Shown: positions 1-59,969 of the stretch, piece after piece
Layout: every line of letters begins with the position of its first letter
How positions within the stretch are numbered: the first letter of the stretch is position 1
NCBI RefSeq assembly: GCF_002915595.1
Contig: NZ_PQGG01000010.1
Coordinates: 7,501 to 71,500, forward strand
Origin: Zhongshania marina
GTDB lineage: Bacteria > Pseudomonadota > Gammaproteobacteria > Pseudomonadales > Spongiibacteraceae
Direction: 5' to 3'
DNA length: 64,000 bases
The notes under the pieces: generated by a model
What the model saw: only the letters and a program-made list of their open reading frames with translations
Told to the model about the DNA's origin: nothing
Databases searched by the model: none
Made by a program: the position numbers and the translations under genes

Positions 1-22
1 TGCCATTGTTACAAAGCGCGAC

Positions 23-838
23 TCATTTAAATCGGCGGTATATTGCCTGTACGGGGCCAGACAAGGCATAGATCATTGCCGCCGCCAGTAAGACTCGCGC
101 CGGGTCAACGGAGACCAAACCAAAAATCAGGACAACTGCGATCATCACCACAAACGGCACCCGACCGCGCAAATCTATGCCTTTAAAGCTGCTGTAGCGC
201 ACATTAAGTATCATCAGCATGCCACACATCGCCATTAACAAGCCGGCAAACACCTCGATTTCAAAGTGAATACCCTGCTCCACCCAGCCCTCTTCTGCAC
301 AAACCCAAACCAAACCCGCCATCACCGCAGCGGCGGCAGGACTCGCCAAACCGGTAAAGTAGTTTTTATCAGCGGTATCTATTTGGGTATTAAAGCGAGC
401 CAAACGCAAGGCCGCACAAGCTACATATATAAAGGAGACCGCCCAGCCAAACTTACCCAAATCTACCAGCGCCCAACTGAACACAACTAAGGCTGGCGCA
501 ACGCCAAAGGACACCATATCGGCCAAACTATCGTATTCAGCGCCAAATTTACTTTGCGCGTTCATCAGCCTAGCAACACGGCCATCTAACCCGTCAAAGA
601 TCATTGCGGCAAATATCGCAATTGCGGCATTTTCAAAATTCCCGTGCATGCCCGAAATAATGGCAAAGAACCCAGAGAACAAGGCCGCTGTCGTAAACAA
701 ATTCGGCAACAGGTAAATTCCGCGCTTACGCACGGTTTTGCCATCGACAGACACTTCTTCTTCGTGATCGTCGATCAGCAATAAAGCCTCTTTATCAAAG
801 CTCAATTTTGATTTCTCGCTGTCCGGCTGTTCTGTCAT
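23..838 (-). CDS. pssA: CDP-diacylglycerol--serine O-phosphatidyltransferase
   Basis: Makes phosphatidylserine from CDP-diacylglycerol and L-serine in the inner membrane, the first step toward phosphatidylethanolamine. The protein is 271 aa and carries the complete CDP-alcohol phosphotransferase signature at residues 82-107: D82, D85-G86, A89-R90, G99, D103 and D107, which bind the metal and CDP. About eight hydrophobic segments follow a charged, soluble N-terminus of about 40 residues. This is the multi-membrane-span PssA type, not the peripheral phospholipase D-like enterobacterial PssA. It lies downstream of ilvY on the same strand, near ilvC; in pseudomonads pssA also sits beside ilv genes. 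Product assignment is firm. Confidence 0.95.
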   Translation of the reverse strand: MTEQPDSEKSKLSFDKEALLLIDDHEEEVSVDGKTVRKRGIYLLPNLFTTAALFSGFFAIISGMHGNFENAAIAIFAAMIFDGLDGRVARLMNAQSKFGAEYDSLADMVSFGVAPALVVFSWALVDLGKFGWAVSFIYVACAALRLARFNTQIDTADKNYFTGLASPAAAAVMAGLVWVCAEEGWVEQGIHFEIEVFAGLLMAMCGMLMILNVRYSSFKGIDLRGRVPFVVMIAVVLIFGLVSVDPARVLLAAAMIYALSGPVQAIYRRFK

Positions 839-35508: not shown

Positions 35509-35958
35509 ATGAAGAATTCCGCCCTAACAATTGCACTTTGCGCAGGCCTCTTAATATGCAGCGCAGGCGTTAACGCAGACAAAACCGGTTACTACCGCTG
35601 GGCAGACAATGAGGGCAAACAACATTTCACCCAACAGCCGCCGGTTGGTCGTAAATACGATTTTGTCGAAACCCGCAGCGGCGCCACCACCCATAGCGAT
35701 GGCATTGATTTAGCAGACGAGAGCAATAACGAACAAGAAGTAGACGACAACGGCGCAGCGCCAGAAAAGATGGAAATTCTCCCCCCCAAAGACCCTGTCT
35801 TATGCGAAAAGGCCAAGGGAAATATGCAGTCACTGAAGGCCAATGGCGCAAGAATACGCATCACCAATGCCGACGGCAGCACCCGGATGCTAAACCCTGA
35901 GGAAATTAAACAACAAGAAAACCGCGCCCAACAAGTCATTAAGCTGCACTGCGAATAA
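35509..35958 (+). CDS. DUF4124 domain-containing exported protein
   Basis: 149 aa. Signal peptide about 1-23 (ending GVNA), then the DUF4124 motif YYRWADNEGKQHFTQQPP (residues 28-45), common in gammaproteobacterial periplasmic proteins of unknown function. The remainder is acidic and low in complexity with a basic C-terminal helix (EEIKQQENRAQQV) and two late cysteines. It is convergent with the HupE/UreJ-like gene, 8 bp apart, so it is not in that operon. Confidence 0.85.
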   Translation: MKNSALTIALCAGLLICSAGVNADKTGYYRWADNEGKQHFTQQPPVGRKYDFVETRSGATTHSDGIDLADESNNEQEVDDNGAAPEKMEILPPKDPVLCEKAKGNMQSLKANGARIRITNADGSTRMLNPEEIKQQENRAQQVIKLHCE

Positions 35959-35966
35959 GCCTTGCC

Positions 35967-37055
35967 TTAAATGCGCTGCGCCGCCATATACAGTCCGCTG
36001 GCAATCAATAAGATGCTCGCCAGCGGAAACACCCGACGCTGATACAGCGGTAAAAAGCTAAAGCGATATAAGACCGGCAACACAATAATCACCAAGGCTA
36101 ACTGTGCCAGCTCTATACCGACATTAAAGCTAGCCAGCGCCAAGAGTTTTAAGGGGCTGGCCGCCAGCAGGTCCGACAGTACACCGGCAAAGCCAAATCC
36201 GTGAATTAAGCCCACCCCCATCGCCAAACCACGCTGAAGACGAGCATTCACATCCATTAAGGCCATAAACGCGGCTAAGCTAATCGAGATCGCGATGGCA
36301 ATTTCTACCGGTTGCGACGGTAGACTAAACCAGCCTAAACTCGCCGCTATCAGGGTAAAGCTGTGTGCCAAGGTGAACATGGTGACAACCAGAGCAACAT
36401 CGGTAAAAACCCGTCGCAAAGACTCTGCTTGAGTGCCTAGGTTTTTCCGCCGAGTCGCCGGCAACAACAACGCTAATAAAAATAGCATATGGTCGTAACC
36501 GACCAGCAAATGCACGACACCCTGCCATAAAAATACGCCAGCCGTGCTTAATGGCGAAATGTCCTCACCCAAGACCAGCGACTGATTTGACGGCGACAAT
36601 ACACTAAGCTGCTTTTCGCCACTCAAATTACTTAGCAATAGCGCTCGGTGTTGTGGGTCGATATTAAATAACAAAGAGTAATCGAGATTCACCGCTGCAC
36701 GAGATAGGCAGTCAGAGGTCAGCGACCACGACGTATATGGACCGTCACTATGATCACTCATACCCCGCAATACAATATCCAAGCCACAGCGTTCGCCTCC
36801 GTGGCTAAGCACAATATGTTTTGCCAATAGGGCTGAAAAAACGGGCTCAGTCGCGCGCAACTCTCCCCAGCTCACAACGCCGTCCCCATTCACATCTATA
36901 AGGTCAATGCGCAGCATATCCTGCACTGCAAGGTCTAAGCGGATTTGCTCTGAGCTAATATACAAAAAGCTGTCGCTGGCCTTATGGGCAAAACTTAGAT
37001 TAGAAAAGACAGCCCCGATCAAGACCAACACTGGAATCAATATTAAGCGCATCAT
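35967..37055 (-). CDS. HupE/UreJ-like membrane protein with periplasmic EF-hand domain
   Basis: 362 aa. Signal peptide about 1-23; an exported domain (about 24-165) carrying a canonical EF-hand loop at residues 54-65 (D54, N56, D58, V60, S62, E65); then about seven transmembrane helices of the HupE/UreJ_2 family with conserved histidines in HLLVGYDHMLFL, TLAHSFTL and GLIHGFGFAG. Relatives are linked to nickel or cobalt handling, but this long form is widespread without a known role. It is last in a four-gene operon, overlapping the TPR-like gene by one base. Confidence 0.85.
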   Translation of the reverse strand: MMRLILIPVLVLIGAVFSNLSFAHKASDSFLYISSEQIRLDLAVQDMLRIDLIDVNGDGVVSWGELRATEPVFSALLAKHIVLSHGGERCGLDIVLRGMSDHSDGPYTSWSLTSDCLSRAAVNLDYSLLFNIDPQHRALLLSNLSGEKQLSVLSPSNQSLVLGEDISPLSTAGVFLWQGVVHLLVGYDHMLFLLALLLPATRRKNLGTQAESLRRVFTDVALVVTMFTLAHSFTLIAASLGWFSLPSQPVEIAIAISISLAAFMALMDVNARLQRGLAMGVGLIHGFGFAGVLSDLLAASPLKLLALASFNVGIELAQLALVIIVLPVLYRFSFLPLYQRRVFPLASILLIASGLYMAAQRI

Positions 37056-38188
37056 TAGCGCACCTGCACAGCATTAGCCGCGTCTTTCGCATGCGACAAA
37101 ATCACCGCATCTGGCCATTCACGCTGATGCTCCCAATTTTTTTCTGCCATTAACAAGGCGAGCTGTGGCTGCTGCTCTATCTCTAATAAAAATTGCGCGT
37201 AGGCTCGTTTGTGTAAAATCTCGCCACGCCACCGCGCCTCATCGAAGCGCTCTCGCAATATCCTTACAAGCGCCTCATTCCCACCCAAATACTGCTGGGC
37301 AATTGCGCGACTCACCGCAAGCGCATCGACCGCAAGGTAATCTTCAGTTAGAGACATGACTTGCTGATAATCCCCTTGATTCAACAGCAGACTGGCAAGA
37401 CGCGCACGGGTGTATAAATCACCGCGATTAAGCTGCAGCGCCAACTGCCATAGCGCAAGCGCGTCGTCGCGGCCAGCGCGCTCGGCTATGTCGGCAAGAG
37501 TTCCGCTCGCCCAGATCAACGCCTGCCGATCAGCTAACACGCCTACGGCTGCCATTGCCTGCTTTAGCGCCTGATAGGCTGCATCCGCGTCACCGCTTAC
37601 TGCCTGCAATTGCTGCACACAACTGGCCGCATAAAGACTATTTTCATATTGTTTTAGCGACGAGCAGGCCTGCTCAGCCGCCTGATAATTGCCGCTAACA
37701 AAGCTGATAGTAAATCGCATCATGCGTGATTCGAGATTATCTGCTTTCATCGCTGATATCTTATTTAGGTCAGCCAAGGCTTCATCAAATAAGTGCAGAC
37801 TTTGCCGCAGCGACGCCCGATAAAAATAAAATGGCGCACTCTGCTTGTGATTGGGGATTGCAGCAAGCTCACGCTCGGCGTCACCTAAAAAGCGGGGATT
37901 GGCGGTTTCTCTGAATAAAACTAAAGCCTGCTTTGCGGCTTTAAGGTGTTGTTCTGGCGTTATTACGGTTGCGCCGGAAGAAACAATTGCTGATGAACTG
38001 ATACGAAAAATGATCTCATCGTTTGTGCTTGGTTGATAAATGCTTGGCCCATCTACGTTGCCAGCGTCCGCCCACAAGCGCCCTGCCAAGGCGATATAAA
38101 TCATAATCGCAAAAAAAATAGCGCGGCGATAAACGCACCGCCGCGCTACTTCTCGTTTCGGACTACTCAAGTTACAGACTGTCGACAT
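37055..38188 (-). CDS. Exported TPR-like protein
   Basis: Helical-repeat protein with a tetratricopeptide pattern over about residues 75-360 (AERELAAIPNH, ALADLNKISAM, ALWQLALQLN and similar). The ATG at 38188 (377 aa) gives a basic N-terminus plus hydrophobic stretch (RRAIFFAIMIYIALAGRLWA), a signal peptide or anchor; it overlaps the lipoprotein gene by 17 bp. An earlier ATG at 38224 is possible. It probably works as a scaffold in the periplasm with the lipoprotein, DUF4331 and HupE-like products of the same operon. Confidence 0.75.
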   Translation of the reverse strand: MSTVCNLSSPKREVARRCVYRRAIFFAIMIYIALAGRLWADAGNVDGPSIYQPSTNDEIIFRISSSAIVSSGATVITPEQHLKAAKQALVLFRETANPRFLGDAERELAAIPNHKQSAPFYFYRASLRQSLHLFDEALADLNKISAMKADNLESRMMRFTISFVSGNYQAAEQACSSLKQYENSLYAASCVQQLQAVSGDADAAYQALKQAMAAVGVLADRQALIWASGTLADIAERAGRDDALALWQLALQLNRGDLYTRARLASLLLNQGDYQQVMSLTEDYLAVDALAVSRAIAQQYLGGNEALVRILRERFDEARWRGEILHKRAYAQFLLEIEQQPQLALLMAEKNWEHQREWPDAVILSHAKDAANAVQVR

Positions 38189-38402
38189 CAATCGGATCAG
38201 AGCTGTCGGTAATCGTTTTGTCATTCACCGATATCGGTTCGGCATTTGCATCTTGCATAAATACCGAAGTAAGTAGCTGATTAGCACTAATTGCCATATC
38301 ACCGCCACCTGCCGCTTTCCCGTCGTACTTATCGTCGTCATTACACGCCGCTAAACCAAGACCCAAGCCAATAAACAGGCTGCATTTAATGATGGTGTTC
38401 AT
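38172..38402 (-). CDS. Small acidic lipoprotein
   Basis: 76 aa with a clear lipoprotein signal: MNTIIK, hydrophobic core, lipobox LAAC with Cys20. The mature part is short and acidic (CNDDDKYDG at its start, ending SSDPIDVDSL). Family not recognised. It is 10 bp after the DUF4331 gene and overlaps the TPR-like gene, so it belongs to that operon. Asp at +2 after the cysteine region would suggest inner-membrane retention only if directly at +2; here +2 is Asn, so outer-membrane sorting is likely by the E. coli rule. Confidence 0.75.
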   Translation of the reverse strand: MNTIIKCSLFIGLGLGLAACNDDDKYDGKAAGGGDMAISANQLLTSVFMQDANAEPISVNDKTITDSSDPIDVDSL

Positions 38403-38412
38403 AAACGCCTCC

Positions 38413-39999
38413 TTATCTATTCGCGGTTGCTACGCCAGGGATTGGGGTGTTCAGGTATGGAAACACCGTTAAGTAATCTGCCGTTGACGGTAAAGCGCCG
38501 TCATTCACCACTGCGCCAGCATTGGCAACTGCAGGTGAAGCACCACTTAGATCGCAGGTTTGTAACCCATTGGCACCCAATAGCGCACCTTCCGCGACGG
38601 TTAGGGCGATATCAACCACATCGTCCGTCACGCGACGTCCATTTGGGAAACCCGCCAAGTCACAGCCTAAAAAGCCAAGGTCACTGTAACCAGCAGCACC
38701 AGGCACAACCGGCGCAATGGCCACATTCATGCGCAGCATTTCACCCGGCGTAGTCAGGTTTGCCGGAGCGGTAAACTTGAAGTTTGCCGGTGTGTCATTC
38801 GGCCCAGTTGTTACACCGGTTACAAACGCTGCCAATAAATCCGCGCGGCCACCCTCCGGCTTGGGTGCAGGAACATTAAACAGGACTTCAATCAATGTTG
38901 GCAGAGTCGGGTACAACACATAGCTACCGAAATTTGCCACATCATCTTTAGGCTCACTGGCATTAAATTTGTCTTTGTCGGTAATACCAATAACCACCTC
39001 ATTCACCAGCGGGCTGCCCAAGCGGGAAACCTGTGTCCACGCGCCGAGCTCAACCGAGGGACCTTTGCCAGATGCGGTATCGGTAGGGCCAGTGGGCGAG
39101 GGATTTAACACACGACCCTGACGCTTACTCGCCGTCGTCCATGCACCAATTACGGTATCGTCGCCGCTTGTTAAGCAACTTGAAGGTATTTCCAAGGCCA
39201 TCGAAGTTACGTTTTTATCGTCAATGGTATTGCTGCGAGAATCACGGGCGCCCAAGGGATTAAGGTTTACTTGGTCGAATATTTCACCCAAATTCACCAC
39301 AAAGCCTTCGCGGCGCTGGCCCACAAATAAGCGACCCGGTGTAGCGCAACCCGGAACAGCAACCTCATAGATATACTGATTCGCGTAAGACTCATAATCG
39401 GGAATCGTTAGCGCGCCAATATTATCAACGGGTTTGGTGAAGGTCGTATTGCTGCCCCCAGCCTGACTCAGCGCGCTACGCGTTCCGGTGCGACGGTCGC
39501 CGCGCACAACATTCACAGAGTAGGTTTCAACTACGTTTAGCAAACCGGTTTGACCACCAACAACACTGGCTGGCGCAACCGCTGCCAAAGGCACCTGAAC
39601 ATCGCTGCCGGCACCGGTATCAATACCGCCGTCGCGGATTAAGCCGGACGCATTGGCTTGGCCATAGGCATTGTTAAATTGAAACTGAAAGGTGATGTCT
39701 TCTACTGCATCGCCATTATTGTCGACATGAATTTCGTAAAGCGCGGTGGGATCTAAGGTAAAGTAATTTGGCCCGCCGTAGGCGTCTTGCAAGGGCTGGT
39801 AATTTGCAATCAAGGTAACAAAATCACCTCGACCTGCTTCATAGCTGCGGAACATGTAAAAATCTGTGCCATCCACCTTGGGCGAACCGGCTATAAACGG
39901 TGCCTCCCGGTGACTAGATGCAACTGCAAACTGGCTGATGACGCTAGCGCTGAGTAATGACAGCGCGAAGATCTGCCCCCGTGTAGATAATTTCATCAT
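38413..39999 (-). CDS. DUF4331 exported protein
   Basis: Recognised as DUF4331 by the start of the mature protein ASSHREAPFIAGSPKVDGTDFYMFRSYE-like segment (SSHREAP hallmark) and the long beta-rich body with NPLGARDSRSNTIDDKNVTSMALEIP. From the ATG at 39999 (528 aa; 527 from 39996) GAGGT lies just upstream; an earlier in-frame ATG at 40050 lacks one. Signal peptide of about 27 residues. No enzyme motif is known to me. It heads the operon with the lipoprotein, TPR-like and HupE-like genes, a recurrent gene set of unknown function. Confidence 0.87.
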   Translation of the reverse strand: MMKLSTRGQIFALSLLSASVISQFAVASSHREAPFIAGSPKVDGTDFYMFRSYEAGRGDFVTLIANYQPLQDAYGGPNYFTLDPTALYEIHVDNNGDAVEDITFQFQFNNAYGQANASGLIRDGGIDTGAGSDVQVPLAAVAPASVVGGQTGLLNVVETYSVNVVRGDRRTGTRSALSQAGGSNTTFTKPVDNIGALTIPDYESYANQYIYEVAVPGCATPGRLFVGQRREGFVVNLGEIFDQVNLNPLGARDSRSNTIDDKNVTSMALEIPSSCLTSGDDTVIGAWTTASKRQGRVLNPSPTGPTDTASGKGPSVELGAWTQVSRLGSPLVNEVVIGITDKDKFNASEPKDDVANFGSYVLYPTLPTLIEVLFNVPAPKPEGGRADLLAAFVTGVTTGPNDTPANFKFTAPANLTTPGEMLRMNVAIAPVVPGAAGYSDLGFLGCDLAGFPNGRRVTDDVVDIALTVAEGALLGANGLQTCDLSGASPAVANAGAVVNDGALPSTADYLTVFPYLNTPIPGVATANR

Positions 40000-40109
40000 A
40001 GCACCTCGGTTATTATGGATTGTCCGCAGTTTGTACGCGGCCCCACTCAACTCAGATCACTAAAATAAAACTATCTACACAAAAGCCATTGCCGATAACT
40101 TATATGACG

Positions 40110-42698
40110 CTATTGTAAGCGCGCCGTACTAAACACAATATCATCACCGTCGACCGTCGCAGCAATCACTTGCCCAGGACTAAACTCCCCCTTGAGCAAG
40201 CGCTGCGCTAGTGGGTTTTCAAAGCGCTGCTGGATGGCCCGCTTTAGCGGCCTTGCACCGTATACCGGATCAAAACCAACATCCGCCAGCCGATCTAGTG
40301 CCTCATCACTTACCTCTAAGCGCAACTCTCGCTCCGCTAAACGCTGATTGAGTATACCCAACTGAATACCGGCAATAGCCTGCACCTGATGACGGTCTAA
40401 AGGCTCAAACACCACCAACTCATCAACGCGGTTAATAAATTCCGGGCGGAAATGTCCAGAAACCACATTCAAAACCGCCTCTCTGATTTTGTCGTAGCCA
40501 CTGCTCGCCAAGGTCATCTCCTGAATCACATCGGAACCTAGATTCGAGGTCATCACAATAACCGTATTTCTAAAATCAACGGTACGACCCTGGCCATCCG
40601 TTAAACGGCCATCGTCTAAAACCTGCAATAAAATATTAAACACATCGGGATGTGCTTTTTCTACTTCATCCAAGAGCAGCAAGGAGTATGGGCGTCTGCG
40701 CACCGCTTCTGTTAAGTAGCCGCCCTCTTCGTAACCGACATAGCCGGGAGGCGCACCAATCAGGCGAGCAACAGAATGTTTCTCCATGAACTCCGACATA
40801 TCAATGCGCACCATCGCGTCTTCACTATCGTAAAGAAACATCGACAACGCCTTACACAACTCAGTTTTCCCAACACCGGTTGGCCCCAAGAACAAAAATG
40901 ATCCATTGGGACGGTTAGGATCGCTCAAACCGGCACGAGAGCGCCGAACCGCATTTGAAACCGCATCGACCGCTTCCACTTGACCAATTACGCGACGGTG
41001 CAGCTCATCTTCCATACGCAATAATTTATCTCGTTCGCCCTCAAGCATTTTGCTAATGGGAATACCGGTCCAACGCGAAACTACCTCGGCAACTTCTTCT
41101 TCGGTAACTTTATTGCGCAATAACTGCATTTCGCCATGATCGACAGAGTCGGCATCGGCAAGTTTTTTCTCAAGATTCGGAATAATGCCGTACTGCAATT
41201 CTGACATGCGCGTCAGATCACCCGCGCGACGAGCACCGTCCATATCCAGCTTGGCCTTCTCAAGATCTATCTTAATTTGAGCAGAACCCTGCAAGGCCGC
41301 TTTTTCACCCTTCCAAATTTCATCTAAGTCGGCAAACTCTTTACCAACTTTTTCAATATCTAAATTTAATTTTTCTAATTGCTTGCGGGCGGCATCATCG
41401 TCTTCTTTTTTTACCGCTTCGCGCTGAATTTTTAATTGAATCAAACGCCGCTCTAGCCTATCCATTACCTCGGGTTTTGAATCAATTTCCATACGAATAC
41501 GGCTCGCCGCTTCGTCGATTAAGTCAATCGCCTTATCCGGTAACTGCCTATCGGTAATATAGCGCTGCGACAACTTAGTCGCGGCAATGATTGCCGAGTC
41601 TGTGATATCAACGCTGTGATGCACCTCATAGCGCTCTTTTAAACCGCGTAGAATCGCAATAGTATCTTCTTCAGTAGGCTCTTCTACCAACACTTTTTGG
41701 AAACGCCGCTCAAGTGCCGCGTCTTTTTCAATAGACTGACGATATTCATTTAAAGTGGTTGCACCTACGCAATGCAGTTCGCCACGCGCCAAGGCCGGCT
41801 TTAGCATATTGCCCGCATCCATAGCGCCGTCAGCCTTACCTGCGCCTACCATCGTATGCAGTTCGTCGATAAATAATATTACCCGGCCCTCTTCTTTGCC
41901 GAGTTCATTGAGGACTGCTTTTAAACGCTCTTCGAAGTCACCGCGAAACTTAGCCCCCGCCAATAGCGCGGCTAAGTCTAAAGAAAGCACTCGTTTACCC
42001 TTTAGGCCTTCAGGCACTTCACCGTTAACGATTCGTTGCGCCAAACCTTCAACAATCGCTGTTTTACCTACCCCAGGCTCACCGATTAAAACCGGATTAT
42101 TTTTCGTTCTGCGCTGCAATACTTGAATAGTTCGACGGATTTCGTCATCGCGACCAATTACCGGATCGAGTTTGCCCGACGCGGCGCGCTCAGTAAGGTC
42201 TATCGTGTATTTATCTAACGCCTGCCGAGACTCCTCTGCGGAGGCATCATTGACCGACTGACCACCGCGAATTTTATCAATCGCAGCAATTAATGCCGGT
42301 TTCGCAACGCCACTCGCTGTTAGTAGATTCGCGGTCTCACCGCCGACCTCCAACATCGCCAATAAAATCAATTCGCTAGATATATAACTGTCTTGACGCT
42401 GCTGCGAAAGCTTGTCGCAAACATTGAACACTCTAGCCAAGGTTTGAGATACATGAACTTCACCATTTGCTCCCTGCACGGTTGGCAAACGATCTAACTC
42501 AGCGGCAATTTTTTGCTCTAATGCTGGCACATTCGCACCTGACTGAGCCAATAGTGGCCGAGTGCTGCCGCCCTGCTGCTTTAGCAGTGCCGACAATAAA
42601 TGTACCGCTTCAATATATTGATGATCCTTACCAAGCGCGAGCGACTGCGCATCGGCAAGTGCAGTTTGCAATGAATTCGTAAAACGATCAGCACGCAT
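40110..42698 (-). CDS. clpB: ATP-dependent disaggregase ClpB
   Basis: 862 aa (E. coli 857). Works with DnaK to dissolve protein aggregates. N-terminal Clp_N repeats (about 1-145), first AAA+ with Walker [14 protein letters not shown] near 203, the coiled-coil middle domain (about 410-525), second AAA+ with [12 protein letters not shown] near 605, and the C-terminal D2-small domain. Ribosome-binding site GGGGAG 6 bases before the ATG. A near-consensus sigma-32 promoter lies upstream. Gene order bamD, rluD, pgeF, clpB is as in E. coli. Confidence 0.98.
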
Positions 42699-52401: not shown

Positions 52402-52863
52402 TTAACGACGCCAGCAGTCTGCCAAGGTTTTTGAGGAGCCATCAGGCAATGAGGTTATCGCCAAATTACCCGTTTCGTCATAGGTAAAATTACCACAGGC
52501 GTCACCTGCCATCACTCCCGCTCGAGTAGCCTGTAGGGTAAAAGCATTTGCCGATGCGGCGGTAGACGCAATCGTATAATAGGCAGTGCCGTTTTCAGGC
52601 ACCTTAGTTGGAAACACCGCCGGCAAGGTAGAACCACCCGCAGTAGTGGTATAACGTCCATTAGCTGAATAGTAACGCTCCAAAGCCTGTGCAGCCGTAA
52701 ACAGTGCATTACTCGCCTCGTTCCGTCGCGACTTCGCCACCGACTCCTGATAAGAGGGGTAAGCGATAGAGGCCAAAATACCGACTATCGCGACAGTAAT
52801 CATCAACTCCATTAAACTAAAACCGCGTACATTTTTAGAATAACTCACTGCAACTGTCTCCAT
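52402..52863 (-). CDS. pilE: Type IV minor pilin PilE
   Basis: 153 aa. Class III signal: basic leader to Gly14, then F-S-L-M-E (Glu at +5) and the hydrophobic helix to about residue 36, processed by PilD. The C-terminal disulphide-bonded loop of this family is present (DACGNF to LADCWRR). It is last in the minor pilin operon, its start overlapping the pilY1 stop by 19 bp. Minor pilins prime pilus assembly with PilY1. Confidence 0.92.
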   Translation of the reverse strand: METVAVSYSKNVRGFSLMELMITVAIVGILASIAYPSYQESVAKSRRNEASNALFTAAQALERYYSANGRYTTTAGGSTLPAVFPTKVPENGTAYYTIASTAASANAFTLQATRAGVMAGDACGNFTYDETGNLAITSLPDGSSKTLADCWRR

Positions 52864-55800
52864 GATTGACGGCCAAATCCACCACCGGCACTTTCCGTGA
52901 CAATGCCAATAGTACCACTGGTTCCCGACGTGTACTTATATTCCACCTTACCCGCACCAACGATACCAGGCGTCTTAATCATCTCGGGACTACCGATTCC
53001 ACTTGCAGGAAAATAATCCTCACCAAGCACCCCCTCGTCCAATTCATTAATTTTACCGTCCCCATTTATATCTAATACGGGGGCACCAATGCGCCCCCCA
53101 GTAACAGAATCTAGCTCCATCAACCAACTGTTCCCCCCAAAACCACACACACTTTCCGAAGGAATGATGGTCGCAAAAATAATCCTGCCATTACGCAAAA
53201 TCGGTTGCGACACTACACGCTCACCTCCAGCAATTTTTGATGGCGGATAAAGTGGCAGATGCCAACCATAGGTAGGCGGTGTTCCCGCGCTATTATTGCT
53301 AACAATACGAATCTGGTTCGTGGATGCCGAACCATTTTTCGTGGTAATTTCACCTTCAAAATCTATACTTTGCGAAAGCAATTTGTCCCGACCGCTAAAG
53401 CTAGCGCCATTGTCTCGAATACCGTAAAAATCTTGTATTTGAGGAGTAACCGGCAGTACCGCATCACTATTCTCAAAATATTTTCCCGTGCCGAAGTACA
53501 CCATATACCCACCCTTTGGATGAGTTCCCACAGTTGGGCGTGAAGTTATCGGCTGAGGAACACCATCGGGATCCAAAACCGTATAAAGTGGTGTCGGCAC
53601 ACCCGCGGTTTCATAAGCGACTTTCCACGCATCTTTACTTTCACCACGCAAATCGAACTTCCATAAATTGCCTTTTAAATCTCCCGCATATACAAAATCA
53701 GTAATACGATCGTTATCTACATCGACGGGAACAGCAGTCGCCAAGCCATTATCAGTACCACTCACCCCCGTATTAATAGCTTTTATTAAGGCACCGGTTT
53801 CAAGATCAACCACAAAAAGTTTAACGGTGTCTCCAGAGTTATAGCCATTACCAAATATAGTCACCCACTTACTGCCAGCAGCAACACGAGCGATTGACGG
53901 CTGGCTCATAGCCACACCCAACTTATCTGCTGCTCCGTTAGCCGTTGAAAACTCCCACATAAAGCTTGACGCGCCTAACGTTGAAGGATCAGTAACATCA
54001 ATCGCAAAAACTGATCTACCACCAGCAGCGGTTGAACTAACCAACACCGACTTCCAACTATTATTCAAATATGCGTCAAGCACCCGCGGTGAACCATCAA
54101 CCACATACGAGTGCTCATATTCAATTTCGGTTAAATCTGCAATCTTGGGATAAGCCGCCACTGGAATATATGCGAATTTTTCAACGCCCGTTTCCGCACT
54201 AAATCCATGGAGCATACCATCATTCGCACCAACGTAAATCATCGGCATTCGCGATGCCTTAGCGGTCAAAAAACTAACGTAGCTCGAGCCCTCTAGCCCC
54301 GGTAGCTTGCTATAACCATAATTTTCATTCGAACCAACAAAAAAAGGATCCGAATTGATAATATCGCCTAAAATAGTGGTTCTTTCGCGAAATTTACTTC
54401 CTTCATATGTGTTATCACCCCGCATCCATGACAAACGAGCCTTTCCTTCACTAACTGCTTCCCCGGCGCGAAGATCACTCTGCTGACTAGCCGACAAGTC
54501 ACCCCACTTAGCCAGTGTAAAATCAACCGCTGTATTCACGAGTGTTTGTTGATCCCCAACACCGGTAATAATATTTCGTGAATCAGCAGCGGGAATCCCA
54601 CCTTTGTTTGTATCCCAAACCGCATCATTGAGGCTGCCATCACCATTTAATGAATAAGCGACAATTCGACCAGACCACTCCAAACTATTAAAACTCGCCT
54701 GATAAATTAATGTTCCAGAATCTAAGCGCGTAGAGTTTGCAGCAACAGATGACGCAGATGATTTACTTTCATTCGCGATGGTTTGGAGAATATCTCCTAA
54801 TTTATTAGCAAACACGTCCGGCTCAGAAGCACTAAAGAAACCACCTCTTGAGTTTACTGCTGCATGCAATAAATCATCGATTTTATGCACTTCACTGGAA
54901 GTTGGTTTGGGCCACGAAATAGCATCACCTGAGGAAATAGCGTTAAAGGCCGCATCCGGGTCGACGGCACCAAATACACCCAACCCAACGCCGAATGTCG
55001 TCATATGCTGCCAAAATGCAGGTGATTTTTTAGAGATCGCAACGACGTTTGCCAAATCTGTACGAAGATCATTTTTCCAATAATACATAGCAACATCAGC
55101 CAATGTACCAGATTCACCATCAGTAAAAGGAGAGACCTTTTTATAGGTATAACTTGCCCCTGTAGGGCCTGTATGTGAGGGTCCATCAGTACCATCATTG
55201 TTATTATTCGTAGCGCCACTAGTAGCGCCACCAGACCAGTATCCATCGGTCATCAAAACAGTATAGTTTCTTCTACATTGTAAATGATCTGAATTATCAT
55301 CCGTTCCGGGAGCAGCCCCCCAAGGCCCCTTATTATCCTTACGTGAAAAGTATTTACCCGCGTAATCAATTGCCAAACGCAAGGGCGTGCCCGCTTGGGG
55401 AATTTCACGCTCATATAAAGACTTGTAAAATTCTGTTCTTGCCGCGCCATCAAATGCGCGCACACCACTCACGATGACCTCAGTTTTTTCTCCATCAATT
55501 GTCGTTTCGCCTTGGTTAATACTGCCGAAACCAACTCGTATTCCCGCCCCCTGCTCGGCAAATGCGTAACCGCTACCACCGCGGGCTGTTAAAATACGAG
55601 ACCGATAATAGGTATACCAATTCGCGAAGTTTTGTATTTCTTGATCGTATGTACATGAAACACTGCCATCATCGGATTCATTACAATCATCACGATTTTC
55701 ACGGCCATCGCCTGTGTACGCCTTACCTGAACGAATCTCGACCTCTTTAAAATTATTCCAACTCCAGTCACTCCCTGTTCCTTTATACCAAAAATACTTA

Positions 55801-56654
55801 GCAGGCCAAAAAGTTTTATTTCCTGTTGTCGAGCTACAACTTCCATCACTAGTACAGCTATACCACCGAACACTATTATAATTTTCATTATTTACTTTAA
55901 GATTGCGACAGTATTTAGCGTCATAACTATTTGTCGTTCTATCTGGGTTGTGCAATGCACAGGTAGGATCGGAATTAGGATATAAGCTTCCATCAGCCTT
56001 GATCCAAGGGTAATAAGTAGTACCAGGATTATAATAAACAGAATTTATTTGCGGTGATCGGGAACGGGCATTAAAACCAGAGTTATTATCCACAGTGGGA
56101 ACATAGTTAGAATAATCATCGCCCTTATAAACTCCATCAGCTCGCGGAAATATATACCGAGCACTGTTATATATAATACTGTCAGGCATCAACTCAAATT
56201 GCATAGAACCGGAGTCATCGAGAATATACATAACATTGGGTTCAGCAGCCTGCGTGAGAAACAATGGCTTTTGCGCGATATCATCATTTACAGGCTCTTC
56301 TGATTCACAATCTTTTAACTCACCATTAACGGTGAATTTAGCTTTGCACTTCTCAAAATCAAGAAGACTATTATAAACAGTAAGTTTATTATCATAATAT
56401 CCGTACTTCCGGCTTGAACACGATTTATTCTTATTTACATCGACTTCCACTATACCGGTAATTTTAGCTAAATCTTGAAATGTATACGTTTCATTTCTAT
56501 TATTTTTACCAATTGATTTATTCATACTCCGCTCGACAATACAGCTTTCTGCCGCCTCCAGAAACGAGGAATACCCACTACTCAGCATAAAAATCATTGC
56601 TATCATCATAGGAGCCAGATACGCGCGAGCAGTACCAATCTGAATTTTATTCAT
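52845..56654 (-). CDS. pilY1: Type IV pilus tip adhesin/assembly protein PilY1
   Basis: 1269 aa. Signal peptide about 1-35. The N-terminal half holds a von Willebrand factor A-like domain with MIDAS-type DDSGSM near residue 148; the C-terminal half is the PilY1 beta-propeller with GANDGMLHGFSA, GRSVFAIDVTDP and a calcium loop of the DxDxDxxxD kind in DVDNDRITD. A second EF-hand-like loop, DINGDGKINELD, is near the C-terminus. PilY1 sits at the pilus tip and controls extension, adhesion and surface sensing. Overlaps pilE. Confidence 0.94.
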   Translation of the reverse strand: MNKIQIGTARAYLAPMMIAMIFMLSSGYSSFLEAAESCIVERSMNKSIGKNNRNETYTFQDLAKITGIVEVDVNKNKSCSSRKYGYYDNKLTVYNSLLDFEKCKAKFTVNGELKDCESEEPVNDDIAQKPLFLTQAAEPNVMYILDDSGSMQFELMPDSIIYNSARYIFPRADGVYKGDDYSNYVPTVDNNSGFNARSRSPQINSVYYNPGTTYYPWIKADGSLYPNSDPTCALHNPDRTTNSYDAKYCRNLKVNNENYNSVRWYSCTSDGSCSSTTGNKTFWPAKYFWYKGTGSDWSWNNFKEVEIRSGKAYTGDGRENRDDCNESDDGSVSCTYDQEIQNFANWYTYYRSRILTARGGSGYAFAEQGAGIRVGFGSINQGETTIDGEKTEVIVSGVRAFDGAARTEFYKSLYEREIPQAGTPLRLAIDYAGKYFSRKDNKGPWGAAPGTDDNSDHLQCRRNYTVLMTDGYWSGGATSGATNNNNDGTDGPSHTGPTGASYTYKKVSPFTDGESGTLADVAMYYWKNDLRTDLANVVAISKKSPAFWQHMTTFGVGLGVFGAVDPDAAFNAISSGDAISWPKPTSSEVHKIDDLLHAAVNSRGGFFSASEPDVFANKLGDILQTIANESKSSASSVAANSTRLDSGTLIYQASFNSLEWSGRIVAYSLNGDGSLNDAVWDTNKGGIPAADSRNIITGVGDQQTLVNTAVDFTLAKWGDLSASQQSDLRAGEAVSEGKARLSWMRGDNTYEGSKFRERTTILGDIINSDPFFVGSNENYGYSKLPGLEGSSYVSFLTAKASRMPMIYVGANDGMLHGFSAETGVEKFAYIPVAAYPKIADLTEIEYEHSYVVDGSPRVLDAYLNNSWKSVLVSSTAAGGRSVFAIDVTDPSTLGASSFMWEFSTANGAADKLGVAMSQPSIARVAAGSKWVTIFGNGYNSGDTVKLFVVDLETGALIKAINTGVSGTDNGLATAVPVDVDNDRITDFVYAGDLKGNLWKFDLRGESKDAWKVAYETAGVPTPLYTVLDPDGVPQPITSRPTVGTHPKGGYMVYFGTGKYFENSDAVLPVTPQIQDFYGIRDNGASFSGRDKLLSQSIDFEGEITTKNGSASTNQIRIVSNNSAGTPPTYGWHLPLYPPSKIAGGERVVSQPILRNGRIIFATIIPSESVCGFGGNSWLMELDSVTGGRIGAPVLDINGDGKINELDEGVLGEDYFPASGIGSPEMIKTPGIVGAGKVEYKYTSGTSGTIGIVTESAGGGFGRQSWRQLQ

Positions 56655-56669
56655 ACATTTCTCCGGCGC

Positions 56670-57215
56670 CTAATTTCCGCCACGTTTGTACATAATACTG
56701 AGCACAACCATACTTCGATCACTAGAACCATAACCTCGGGCTGTCACCCGATAGAAAGCCATGGTGCTCATTTTATCTGAGTCCAAAGCAGCACTAGAAT
56801 CAGCAAAAGTATTTAACTCTTCGATAATATAATCAGGTTGTTGGCTGACTCCTACAACCGTGTCTGCTGCTACTGCTTTCCAACCTTTTAAATCGCGATC
56901 TTTCCAATCCGGTGCTTTACAAGCGACACGGCTATCCGTCGGATCGGCACACCACAAATACAATCCACCACTACCATTAAAAGGGCCGACCGACGTTTGA
57001 CTCAATTCATCTTCGGCCTGCCGCAAAGCAGCTTCCGCAGCTTGGAATGCTTGCTCTACGTTTCTCGCATTACCGGCCATACGCTCCTGCATGGTAGCGG
57101 ATTGCATAGATGCGGCGCCAATAATGGTTAAGATAAGCATGAACACCAAGCTAACAATCAAGGCAGCGCCACGCTGGCCAACCATAATGCTAGATGATTT
57201 AAACACTTTCCTCAT
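56670..57215 (-). CDS. pilX: Type IV minor pilin PilX
   Basis: 181 aa. N-terminal PilX signature: basic leader, G-A-A-L-I-V cleavage region and a long hydrophobic helix (SLVFMLILTIIGAASM), then QERMAGNARNVEQAFQAAEAAL. It lacks the usual Phe at +1 and Glu at +5, as PilX proteins do. Starts 4 bp inside the pilW end (ATGA overlap) and precedes pilY1 by 15 bp. Confidence 0.9.
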   Translation of the reverse strand: MRKVFKSSSIMVGQRGAALIVSLVFMLILTIIGAASMQSATMQERMAGNARNVEQAFQAAEAALRQAEDELSQTSVGPFNGSGGLYLWCADPTDSRVACKAPDWKDRDLKGWKAVAADTVVGVSQQPDYIIEELNTFADSSAALDSDKMSTMAFYRVTARGYGSSDRSMVVLSIMYKRGGN

Positions 57216-58291
57216 GGCACTTTATTCCTGATTACAAATACATTGGTAAAGATTTGCCGCAGACGGCCATCATCATTGGCAATCACATCACCACTGACAT
57301 CTACGACACTTTGCGCATTAGTACTGCCGGTAGTACCAACAACATTGTCTTCAGAGCCAACCATTTGCAAAACAATCTTCACACTAAGGACATCAGACCA
57401 ATCGCTTACTGCTGCACCATCGCGATATTCATCTACATCTCGCTCCACTGCTGAAGCGTCTGTGTCAACACCATAAATAAATTGCATATCTTCAACGCCT
57501 TCAACCAACTCAGTTGCGGCACTCATCACCCCGCCTGAGCCTGCGATTGTCTGCTGAACATATAGCGCATTTATTGGTTTTCCCCCAGGGGTTGTCCGGC
57601 CAGTATCTCTAACAAAATAATTTATTGTTTCAAATGCAAAAATATCAGCATCGACGCCATATAGTTTACCTAGACTAGCCGATGAATTTTTTTTGCCTGC
57701 GGCATGCTTTAATTCAGTAGCCCCCTTACCTTCTGCCAAGGGGGTATTGCTTACGCGAAAAATATCTACACTCTGGCAGTCACTCACCAAAACATAATCT
57801 CCCTCAACAAAGCCCAGACTATTATCATTTATGGTAATCCCCGTTGCCGATGCAGTCGTTGTCGAATCCATGCGAATAAATTCTTTCGATGCTTTTTTAA
57901 TCTGTATTGAATCTGTTCCAACCACCGCCCCAAGCGCATTCCCACTGGCCAAATCATCTTGTCCAACAAATGCCGTGCTGGCGTCAAAATCAACAGCACT
58001 CGCAGGCAGCGCGTTAGTTGTAATTGATGGTCCAACAGAGTCGACTCCGCCATCAAAAGACATACACCCCATATTTCCTGACATACGTACATCTTGCCCG
58101 ATAACTCTCATTGCAAAACGCGCATTTTCTTGAACCTGCGCCAAGGATTGCTGCAATTTAGAGCTACTATTGCTAGCAACAAATATTTGAATTACCGCCG
58201 TACTAAGCACCAGCCCGAGACCGATAGAGATCATCAGCTCAACGAGACCGAAACCGCGATTTCGAAATTTGCTGTTCGATATTTTCAACAT
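57212..58291 (-). CDS. pilW: Type IV minor pilin PilW
   Basis: 359 aa. Prepilin signal RNRG-FGLVELMISIGLGLVL with Glu at +5, followed by the PilW family segment LAQVQENARFAMRVIGQDVR and a large globular domain. Two cysteines occur at CMSF and DCQS. Overlaps pilX by 4 bp and pilV by 1 bp, a strictly coupled operon. Confidence 0.92.
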   Translation of the reverse strand: MLKISNSKFRNRGFGLVELMISIGLGLVLSTAVIQIFVASNSSSKLQQSLAQVQENARFAMRVIGQDVRMSGNMGCMSFDGGVDSVGPSITTNALPASAVDFDASTAFVGQDDLASGNALGAVVGTDSIQIKKASKEFIRMDSTTTASATGITINDNSLGFVEGDYVLVSDCQSVDIFRVSNTPLAEGKGATELKHAAGKKNSSASLGKLYGVDADIFAFETINYFVRDTGRTTPGGKPINALYVQQTIAGSGGVMSAATELVEGVEDMQFIYGVDTDASAVERDVDEYRDGAAVSDWSDVLSVKIVLQMVGSEDNVVGTTGSTNAQSVVDVSGDVIANDDGRLRQIFTNVFVIRNKVP

Positions 58292-58752
58292 TACAACTCC
58301 GTGACAAAAACGAAGGTTTCTAAATCACCGGCACCGTCTTCGCGCGTTCCAGACAATCTGGCCTCATTCCATCTAACAGTAATAGTAAATACTGTGTCAT
58401 CACGGGATATCGAGCCGTCTCCACTTGGTAAGCGAAGACTTAATTCAGTCAACCATTCGCGTTGATCGACGATGTTAATTGCATTGCCCTTTGGGACAGT
58501 CGCGTCCATCGTGAGGTCATAACTACCATCTATTGCCAGCGATCTATTAGCCCGCAATCTATCCGCCATATCACTTGCTAAAAAAACCGCTGCTGAACGT
58601 GTATTTGCAGCCTGATTAAATTTCACAGAATTCAGCTGCAATGCAGCCGCGCCCAGTACACCGGTAGCTGTAATCAATACCGCGACAAGCACTTCTACCA
58701 AAGTAACGCCTAATTGATGACTACGAAGCTCAGCCACCCTAACTTTCTTCAT
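58291..58752 (-). CDS. pilV: Type IV minor pilin PilV
   Basis: 153 aa. Prepilin signal QLG-VTLVEVLVAVLITATGVLG with Glu at +5, then the PilV segment AAALQLNSVKFNQAANTRSAA and DMADRLRANR. It has Val and not Phe at +1 by the usual count. Overlaps the FimU-like gene by 4 bp upstream and pilW by 1 bp downstream. Confidence 0.91.
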   Translation of the reverse strand: MKKVRVAELRSHQLGVTLVEVLVAVLITATGVLGAAALQLNSVKFNQAANTRSAAVFLASDMADRLRANRSLAIDGSYDLTMDATVPKGNAINIVDQREWLTELSLRLPSGDGSISRDDTVFTITVRWNEARLSGTREDGAGDLETFVFVTEL

Positions 58753-59270
58753 GAGCAGTCCCTCTCTACTATCCTCATCTGCCCACTGGCACTAATTTGT
58801 ACATCGCGATCTCTAGCACAGTATTCAGGTGAAGTGCGGTAGCTAATAGACACCGGCAGGGTGCCAACTAAAAATCCATTGGCATCGAATGAAAACGTGC
58901 TAACCCCACTCCCACTTCTACTCACTGTTAACGCAGCACCACTTTTTAAAGCCTTGACCGTTGACAAAACCTCGCCATCATCAAGGTTGCCATCGGCGTC
59001 AAGATCCACCCAACTACGCCAACCATTTTTCCAGTTACCGCCAGTTGCGCTGACAATAACGACCGCTGATCTCGCAACTGCCTCTGATTTAGCGGTAACA
59101 AAACTTTGGCTCAAGGACTGTATGTCTGCACGGGCTCGCGAGCTCTCGATAAAGGACGAAAAATTAGGTACAGCAATACCAAAGAGCACCCCAATTACGG
59201 CCATAGTCGTTAACAATTCAATCAAGCTAAAACCTTGTATTGCGATTCTGCGTCCCACAAATTGCCCCAT
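58749..59270 (-). CDS. fimU: FimU/FimT-like minor pilin (GspH family)
   Basis: 173 aa. Prepilin signal IQG-FSLIELLTTMAVIGVLFGIAVP with Glu at +5; the globular part is GspH/FimT type (ARADIQSLSQSFVTAKSEAVAR, then GNWKNGWRSWVDLDADG). By position at the head of the pilV-W-X-Y1-E operon it corresponds to FimU of Pseudomonas; FimT is an equally good family name. A divergent second member lies at 59466. Confidence 0.85.
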   Translation of the reverse strand: MGQFVGRRIAIQGFSLIELLTTMAVIGVLFGIAVPNFSSFIESSRARADIQSLSQSFVTAKSEAVARSAVVIVSATGGNWKNGWRSWVDLDADGNLDDGEVLSTVKALKSGAALTVSRSGSGVSTFSFDANGFLVGTLPVSISYRTSPEYCARDRDVQISASGQMRIVERDCS

Positions 59271-59385
59271 CTCTAACAGCGCTCAAACTTTTGATGCCCG
59301 CAGCATAACCATTTATGCCACTCTGAACCCTAACGCAAAGCTCAGGCAAGATCAGCACTACTCAGATATACGGTAGCGATATAGC

Positions 59386-59394
59386 GACCAACGG
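59386..59394 (-). promoter_or_regulatory. Weak AlgR-like box upstream of the minor pilin operon
   Basis: Minus-strand CCGTTGGTC differs by one base from the AlgR half-site CCGTTCGTC that drives fimU-pilVWXY1Y2E in P. aeruginosa. It is 116 bp upstream of the FimU-like start. A nine-base near match can be chance. Confidence 0.25.
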
Positions 59395-59465
59395 TAAGCC
59401 CTAGCTATTAGACACGCTCCAACTTCCCTTTTATGATAACCGTGAGTCATAGAAAGGAGTCTGTG

Positions 59466-59969
59466 ATGAAAACTCAGGGAATGACGCTCATTGAGCTATT
59501 GTCGACACTGGCGGTTACTGCTGTTCTTGGTCTTGTTGCCGTACCATCGCTATATGAAACTCTACAAAGTCATCGGCTGCGCTCATCTGCACTGACATTA
59601 TTTCAAACACTAAGCAGCGCCCGAGCAAGCGCAGTGATGCGCAGTAGTCACGTCAGCGTGTGGAATACCGATGGCAATTGGCAAAATGGTGTTGAGGTGT
59701 TTTTAGATAATAATGAAAATGGTGAACTAAATAGTGGCGAACAAGTTCTTTACCGCGCAACACCGCAAAATTATAGCCAGATTAGCGGTAACCGCTGGGT
59801 TGCCAATTATATAAAATTTCATCCTGACGGCAGTGCTCACACCGCCAGTGGAGCATTCCAAGTTGGCACTATTACTGTGTGTACAGAGCAGCTAGATAGA
59901 GGGTATCAGATTATTTTAAGTATTGGCGGACGTCTGCGTATGGTTAAAGTAGATATTGACGAGTGCTAA
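59466..59969 (+). CDS. FimT-like pseudopilin, divergent from the minor pilin operon
   Basis: 167 aa from the ATG at 59466, chosen for its AAAGGAG ribosome-binding site. Very short leader MKTQG, then M-T-L-I-E with Glu at +5 and a hydrophobic helix; the globular part (SARASAVMRSSHVSVWNTDGNWQNG) is GspH/FimT-like and a paralogue of the FimU-like protein, sharing the GNWxNG turn. Met and not Phe follows the cleavage site. FimT proteins can bind DNA during natural transformation, but that role is not shown here. Convergent with ispH, 5 bp apart. Confidence 0.85.
   Translation: MKTQGMTLIELLSTLAVTAVLGLVAVPSLYETLQSHRLRSSALTLFQTLSSARASAVMRSSHVSVWNTDGNWQNGVEVFLDNNENGELNSGEQVLYRATPQNYSQISGNRWVANYIKFHPDGSAHTASGAFQVGTITVCTEQLDRGYQIILSIGGRLRMVKVDIDEC

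Follow-up and report, generated by a model that had tools for sequence, protein, structure and literature searches.

A DUF4331-HupE operon of Zhongshania marina as a candidate envelope metal system with a predicted RpoE-ChrR promoter

HupE/UreJ-2 proteins were named 'anglerases' by Franco Cairo et al., in whose work the free N-terminal His of the Ang-1 domain binds metal, with dissociation constants (Kd) of 74 nM for Cu and 220 nM for Ni (PMC12537917). The authors propose that the N-terminal His feeds the permease, and they favour a role in uptake; the same paper presents DUF4198 as a Ni-binding family with an N-terminal His. TGATCC and CGTA boxes precede the mapped start sites of rpoE2 and pgpD in the RpoE-ChrR system of Shewanella, whose targets include ybgA-phrB-cfa and a photolyase-SDR pair (PMC4336711). 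Chromatin immunoprecipitation sequencing (ChIP-seq) in P. syringae yields the same motif, and the system responds to singlet oxygen and tert-butyl hydroperoxide (tBOOH; PMC5507510). The current work concerns a group of four genes in a 64,000-nucleotide stretch of Zhongshania marina (contig NZ_PQGG01000010.1, positions 7,501 to 71,500), here called the window. These genes encode a DUF4331 protein, a small lipoprotein, a TPR-like protein and a HupE_UreJ_2 permease. Sequence comparison gives good support for a conserved envelope operon and for its control by an extracytoplasmic function (ECF) sigma factor. With slightly better than even confidence, the operon is read as an envelope system for metal capture or transport that is induced by photo-oxidative stress. 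Within this reading, we infer the identity of the metal, the direction of transport and the role of DUF4331, the last being the least certain part.

All four genes lie on the minus strand in the order DUF4331, lipoprotein, TPR-like protein and HupE_UreJ_2, with gaps of 10, -17 and -1 bp. The tight cluster described in the initial annotation was thus confirmed from the open reading frames (ORFs) and their translations. The operon directly follows clpB (stop at 40110; named by eye), and its far end abuts a convergent gene at 35509-35958. The TPR gene overlaps the lipoprotein gene by 17 bp when read from the start at 38188 and by 53 bp from the longest-ORF start at 38224. Scans for sigma-70 promoters (2 found, both on the opposite strand, against 5.6 expected) and for terminators (10 against 7.2 expected) were uninformative. 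The features are as follows.

40034..40059, minus strand: predicted ECF promoter of the RpoE-ChrR type, between the clpB stop and DUF4331 (TGATCT at 40059-40054, 16 nt, CGTA at 40037-40034)
38413..39999, minus strand: DUF4331 protein, 528 aa, predicted to be exported (PF14224, E 2.4e-128; hydrophobic start at residues 10-28 by hydropathy)
39697..39723, minus strand: DUF4331 residues 93-101 (DNNGDAVED), a Ca2+-loop-like D-x-N-x-D-xxx-D (56-row alignment)
38172..38402, minus strand: small lipoprotein, 76 aa, with lipobox LAAC and an acidic tail containing 'AEPISV...SDPIDV' (translation)
37055..38188, minus strand: TPR-like protein, predicted to be exported (translation, weak TPR; longest ORF begins at 38224)
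35967..37055, minus strand: HupE_UreJ_2 'anglerase-type' permease, 362 aa (PF13795, E 5.5e-39)
36984..36986, minus strand: codon of HupE His24, expected first mature residue and anglerase metal-ligand position (alignment and model)
36861..36896, minus strand: HupE EF-hand loop, residues 54-65 (ligand positions conserved)
36066..36533, minus strand: HupE_UreJ_2 membrane domain, residues 175-330 (Pfam range)

Conservation of the unit was followed in a class survey of 274 genomes, in which the DUF4331-HupE linkage was read by eye, and in 80 loci. These loci are the closest of at least 560 DUF4331 relatives confirmed in a genome scan and include near relatives (Massilia, Duganella, Marinobacter). 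DUF4331 was found in 25 of the 274 genomes and HupE_UreJ_2 in 79. The two share a contig and strand in 17 of the 25, with domain matches 0.6-2.3 kb apart, and DUF4331 stands first with HupE downstream in each of these 17 genomes; contig ends leave G178, along with some copies in G085 and G038, undecided. A TPR gene lies between them in most surveyed regions, often overlapping HupE by 1-4 bp. One variant of the order, DUF4331-HupE-TPR, is seen in L051, and no TPR gene was found in the regions read of L052 and L053. Downstream of DUF4331 in the 80 loci, TPR occurs in 56, HupE in 56 and both in 54; both are present in 51 of the 71 loci having 3.5 kb of room. An ORF with a lipobox stands immediately 3' of DUF4331 in 70 of 78 testable loci, compared with 2.45 in shuffles and with 19 of 816 other long ORFs. 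Because the gene set recurs and this lipobox ORF follows DUF4331 so regularly, the cluster is more than a chance arrangement. G292 carries two DUF4331 genes (C1:61508 and C1:603157), both preceded by an ECF-type promoter, and the nearest DUF4331 relative among the matches listed is that of Zhongshania aquimaris, with 91% identity. The suggestion of one envelope unit in the initial annotation is borne out by the conserved order together with the promoter before the first gene. The neighbourhood survey of DUF4331 with HupE/UreJ_2 proposed there found the families together, and not the lack of co-occurrence named there as a refuting outcome.

The HupE protein links this operon to the anglerases. 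It carries the PF13795 membrane domain at its C-terminus (133.8 bits; cut-off 24.5), and the classical HupE_UreJ family (PF04955) remains below its cut-off (17.4 against 23 bits). In the AlphaFold2 model (pLDDT 91.2), the N-terminal domain (residues 24-167) has Cu-bound Ang-1 (9gce, 1..159) as its top match, with Z 11.5, a root-mean-square deviation of 3.6, 124 aligned residues and 12% identity; Foldseek gives E 7.5e-3 for the same pair. The fold also matches ZrgA (Foldseek E 3.1e-4, Z 9.8) and PA4063 (Foldseek E 1.8e-3, Z 9.0). An alignment was built from the window protein and 47 of the 56 downstream HupEs, 9 being omitted for length or start. In it, Ala23-His24 is invariant (48/48 rows, with starts picked with an eye to the Ala-His pair) at the expected signal-peptide cleavage position. 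The membrane residues H182, D188, H189, H231, H285, N311 and E315 are invariant in the same 48 rows. Judged by its model, the HupE protein is structurally an 'anglerase', and metal binding of the anglerase type is likely.

Residues 54-65 of HupE form an EF-hand loop (DVNGDGVVSWGE), on which the Pfam EF-hand models score under their cut-off (16.8 against 25.9 bits). Of 48 operon homologues, counting the window protein, 47 retain the ligands D54, [DNS]56, D58 and E65. A strict EF-hand regular expression matches 34 of 56 HupEs in DUF4331 loci compared with 1 of 24 HupE_UreJ_2 proteins away from DUF4331 (20 and 4 from two sets of regions), so that the EF-hand marks the DUF4331-linked subfamily; the sole unlinked case follows a TPR gene. 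The loop had been reported in the initial annotation. It is present and conserved, but is probably a separate Ca2+ site, apart from His24. The earlier view that no member has an established function has to be revised for HupE, which now has a studied relative in the Ang-1 anglerase. As for the proposed cargo, a metal or other small solute, metal is the likeliest solute; the anglerase fold and the N-terminal His had been missed there. A second HupE_UreJ_2 occurs in the same genome (G000:C4, L061 6697-7797), near a DUF3604 protein and a PpiC-type rotamase, and has no EF-hand pattern.

In the window, TGATCT-N16-CGTA is located 34 nt before the DUF4331 ATG (39999). The same genome has rpoE-chrR (C12: sigma factor and Cupin_7 ChrR), with a promoter site 26 nt upstream. 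Of the 14 TGATCY-N16-CGTA matches in this genome, six are 26-92 nt upstream of a gene: rpoE-chrR (26 nt), an amine oxidoreductase-DUF1365-CMAS (Cfa) operon (31 nt), DUF4331 (34 nt), a divergent MFS_2 gene (37 nt), DUF523/DUF1722 (ybgA)-photolyase (39 nt) and SRPBCC/SDR (92 nt). The other eight comprise one at 160 nt before a TonB-plug gene, two before short ORFs (0 and 101 nt), one with a masked gene at 43 nt, one with an ORF only at 224 nt, one without an ORF and two inside an ORF. Since the promoter is shared, within its own genome, with rpoE-chrR and with known kinds of target, the window operon is a predicted target of RpoE-ChrR, the singlet-oxygen regulon. The guess of light in the initial annotation gains support from this type of promoter. 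Spongiibacter marinus DSM 17750 (L068) also has the operon, and TGATCG-N16-CGTA was read by eye upstream of its DUF4331. Control by RskA in the window's own genome was considered and rejected, with no RskA_C match there.

Promoters of ECF type also precede DUF4331 in relatives. An untrained dyad count found ATCC-N16-CGTA in 43 of 76 upstream sequences; in one shuffled set, no dyad occurred more than 6 times. With the refined motif TG[CA]ATCC[GA]-N15-CGTA[T], 51 of the 76 score above 10 bits on a matrix trained on these same sequences; 40 of the 51 sites sit 27-66 nt before the chosen start. An ECF sigma gene lies less than 3 kb from DUF4331 in 31 of the 80 loci, with RskA_C or ChrR-cupin partners Pfam-checked in examples, and genes of a cluster of RskA-type anti-sigma factors are found near the operon in 32. 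A scan of 44 distinct whole genomes returned 75 distinct matches to the motif, compared with 5 for the reversed pattern. These led to 57 proteins once 11 flagged EXT (3 DUF4331 genes among them) and 7 without an ORF had been dropped. Among the families listed downstream were 16 DUF4331, 5 amine oxidoreductases, 4 DUF3455, 4 TonB receptors, 2 SelR and 2 ECF, with one each of catalase, fasciclin, CMAS, DUF2282 and DUF4198. The promoter also stands before a gene pair for a small exported protein and, after it, an MNIO (PF05114) protein (L154, G280, 1569-2773) and before a DUF2282 protein (L240, G291, 1207-1458). DUF2282 proteins are bufferin precursors, and both of these cases look bufferin-like.

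The DUF4331 protein matches PF14224 over the full profile (1-421 of 421; 429 bits against a cut-off of 27). In the 56-row alignment, SSHREAP, where the mature protein is expected to begin, is among its conserved residues, and in the loop DNNGDAxED the positions D93, [DNS]95, [DN]97 and [DEN]101 are kept in 49 rows; residues 93-101 presumably resemble FG-GAP/EF loops. The structure model is of moderate confidence (pLDDT 76). No usable match came from the structural search (the best Foldseek E was 0.087 and the best VIA-align Z 5.6, with antibody domains making up most of the hits), a model-based result that falls short of proving a new fold, and a PDB sequence search gave no DUF4331 match. The window lipoprotein has no Pfam or NCBIfam match. 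In the last 60 residues, the dipeptide EP occurs in 54 of 71 lipoproteins, against 22.4 with shuffled residues, and two or more EP in 32, against 3.6. Given this enrichment and the lipobox ORF in 70 of 78 loci, the lipoprotein seems to be a real conserved family. The TPR matches of the third protein are below the Pfam cut-off (TPR_19, 19.1 against 25 bits), and H144, C187 and C202 are invariant in 57 of 57 rows. A TPR-HupE pair with an EF-hand and without DUF4331 occurs in G107 (L209, 2766-5221); its TPR protein also matches TPR_Slam, below the cut-off.

In the proposed mechanism, singlet oxygen or organic peroxide would free RpoE from ChrR, and RNA polymerase with RpoE would transcribe DUF4331, lipoprotein, TPR and HupE. 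The first three products would be exported, and HupE would span the inner membrane, its Ang-1-like domain facing the periplasm. There His24, the free N-terminal residue, would bind a transition metal (Cu or Ni being most likely) and hand it to a transmembrane His/Asp/Glu site (H182, D188, H189, H231, H285, E315), with the EF-hand and its Ca2+ stiffening or gating the periplasmic domain. The three exported proteins, among them the acidic lipoprotein, may collect or pass on metal and keep the complex in one piece. Overall, the system would move metal freed or mislocated by oxidative damage, or import metal for defence. A more elaborate form is rather doubtful: a photo-oxidative relay in which a TonB receptor (in some species), DUF4331, the EP lipoprotein and a TPR scaffold would deliver Cu or another metal to a Ca2+-gated anglerase.

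Several observations weigh against a metal system under RpoE-ChrR. The periplasmic domain of HupE did not retrieve 9gce in PDB sequence searches, and no counterpart of the second Cu ligand (Asn41 of RbAng-1a) could be assigned in it. Sequence alone gives no link to 9gce; the Ang-1 assignment rests on the fold and the position of the His. The conserved metal-capable residues of DUF4331 are mostly Asp/Glu with two His, so that this protein fits Ca2+ better than Cu. DUF4331 occurs without a nearby HupE in G184, G190, G159, G209 and G258 of the class survey, and 24 of the 80 loci have no HupE downstream, some of them ended by contig ends. It may therefore act alone. Of the 76 sequences, two have the exact TGATC[CT] form before DUF4331: that of the window and that of Z. 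aquimaris (L067), where the operon is also present. Scored with the matrix built from other species, the window site gets 1.1 bits (p about 0.1), a poor score that would be expected if it belongs to the other ECF type. In its own genome, the pattern is mildly enriched (14 matches against 8 reversed) and was written after the window site had been seen; the RpoE-ChrR case thus rests on the positions of the other matches.

In other genomes, metal and redox genes keep company with DUF4331 or with its promoter type, which favours the metal reading. A TonB-dependent receptor of one family lies less than 5 kb from DUF4331 in 10 of the 80 loci (one copy Pfam-checked), and the nearest solved chain to the receptor of L093 is BtuB (E 2.6e-6). 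The loci are L093, L095, L096, L107, L130, L133, L134, L135, L140 and L145, with a plug motif like GKANQYFLRGFNLDHGTDFA. DUF4198 adjoins DUF4331 in L129, L144 and G274 (Pfam) and in L104 (same cluster). It is located between DUF4331 and HupE in L144 (8533-10508), from a metagenome-assembled genome labelled Phycisphaerales. HupE_UreJ_2 genes away from DUF4331 have differing neighbours; among the families listed, DUF6488 is the commonest (7 of 94 neighbour proteins) and DUF4198 occurs twice, 94 of 101 proteins having been aligned and scanned. Elsewhere in the window, a cluster at 52402-59969 resembles type IV minor pilin and PilY1-like genes, by eye from the ORF list.

The direction of transport could be the opposite of uptake, with the operon binding surplus Cu, or some other metal, in the periplasm and expelling or storing it under oxidative stress. 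MNIO-modified bufferins chelate Cu (PMC12452194), and the same promoter type stands before the DUF2282 protein and the small protein-MNIO pair; in L065, by eye, a further HupE_UreJ_2 is flanked by a CzcA-like RND pump and a CDF-like protein, and a Cation_efflux gene occurs near one unlinked HupE. Such export or detoxification is nevertheless unlikely. Rhizobial HupE imports nickel (cited in PMC12537917), the anglerase authors favour uptake (PMC12537917), and the receptor found within 5 kb of DUF4331 in 10 of the 80 loci is typical of uptake. Uptake of nickel for a nickel enzyme, the classical role of HupE, has the urease alpha gene of this genome in its favour, as well as the binding of Ni by Ang-1 (PMC12537917). 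It is very improbable, however, given the PF04955 score below its cut-off (17.4 against 23 bits), a urease gene on another contig (C25) and an oxidative-stress type of promoter before the operon. A link with NiFe hydrogenase was rejected, with no match in the window's own genome, which also speaks against this role; a link with urease is possible.

A different arrangement would make DUF4331 the working product, a structural or protective protein in Ca2+-dependent envelope assembly or repair, with the other three proteins maturing, placing or supplying it and the metal site being auxiliary. DUF4331 is the first gene, some genomes have it without HupE nearby, and Ca2+-like loops are conserved both in DUF4331 (49/56) and in HupE (47/48); the TPR-HupE pair without DUF4331 (G107, L209) suggests a reusable helper pair. 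This arrangement leaves the invariant N-terminal His and the transmembrane His/Asp/Glu set unexplained, and DUF4198 between DUF4331 and HupE in L144 also speaks against it. It too has a small chance of being correct, and metal capture or transport under photo-oxidative stress remains the preferred reading.

The operon as a unit is described in no paper found, and anglerase systems are already known. In the literature searched, no paper was found for DUF4331, PF14224 or PF13795, and the control term DUF692 was retrieved; no linking paper was among those retrieved by pairing HupE with ECF terms. DUF4331 is widespread, with at least 560 relatives confirmed in one genome scan, and its link to anglerase permeases and a known stress regulon opens its function to direct experiment. 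If correct, the preferred reading would give the bacterial response to light and singlet oxygen a branch for handling metals, and the relay, if real, would be, as far as found, the first part of the RpoE-ChrR singlet-oxygen response dedicated to metal transport.

Compared with the Ang-1 anglerase of Rhodobacteraceae (RbAng-1a, 9gce), the window HupE shares the PF13795 domain, the periplasmic immunoglobulin-like fold, an invariant His after the expected signal peptide and the occasional nearness of DUF4198. It differs in a periplasmic domain without detectable sequence similarity (PDB search), in the added EF-hand loop and in lying within a DUF4331-lipoprotein-TPR operon that has an ECF promoter, a setting that the available portion of PMC12537917 does not mention. 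With the RpoE-ChrR (ECF11) regulon, the operon shares TGATC[CT]-N16-CGTA, and the window genome has rpoE-chrR and the usual targets; the DUF4331/HupE operon is not among the targets described in the accessible parts of PMC5507510, PMC4336711 and PMC6852236. Systems of the SigK-RskA type (ECF18/ECF19; PMC7509140) resemble this one in the RskA-type genes near the operon in many relatives (32/80) and, in one genome, in a fasciclin gene behind the same promoter. The window genome itself differs from them in having no RskA_C match. ZrgA of V. cholerae and PA4063, both periplasmic Zn-binding proteins, share the fold of the HupE N-terminal domain; they are separate proteins, to judge from their entry titles.

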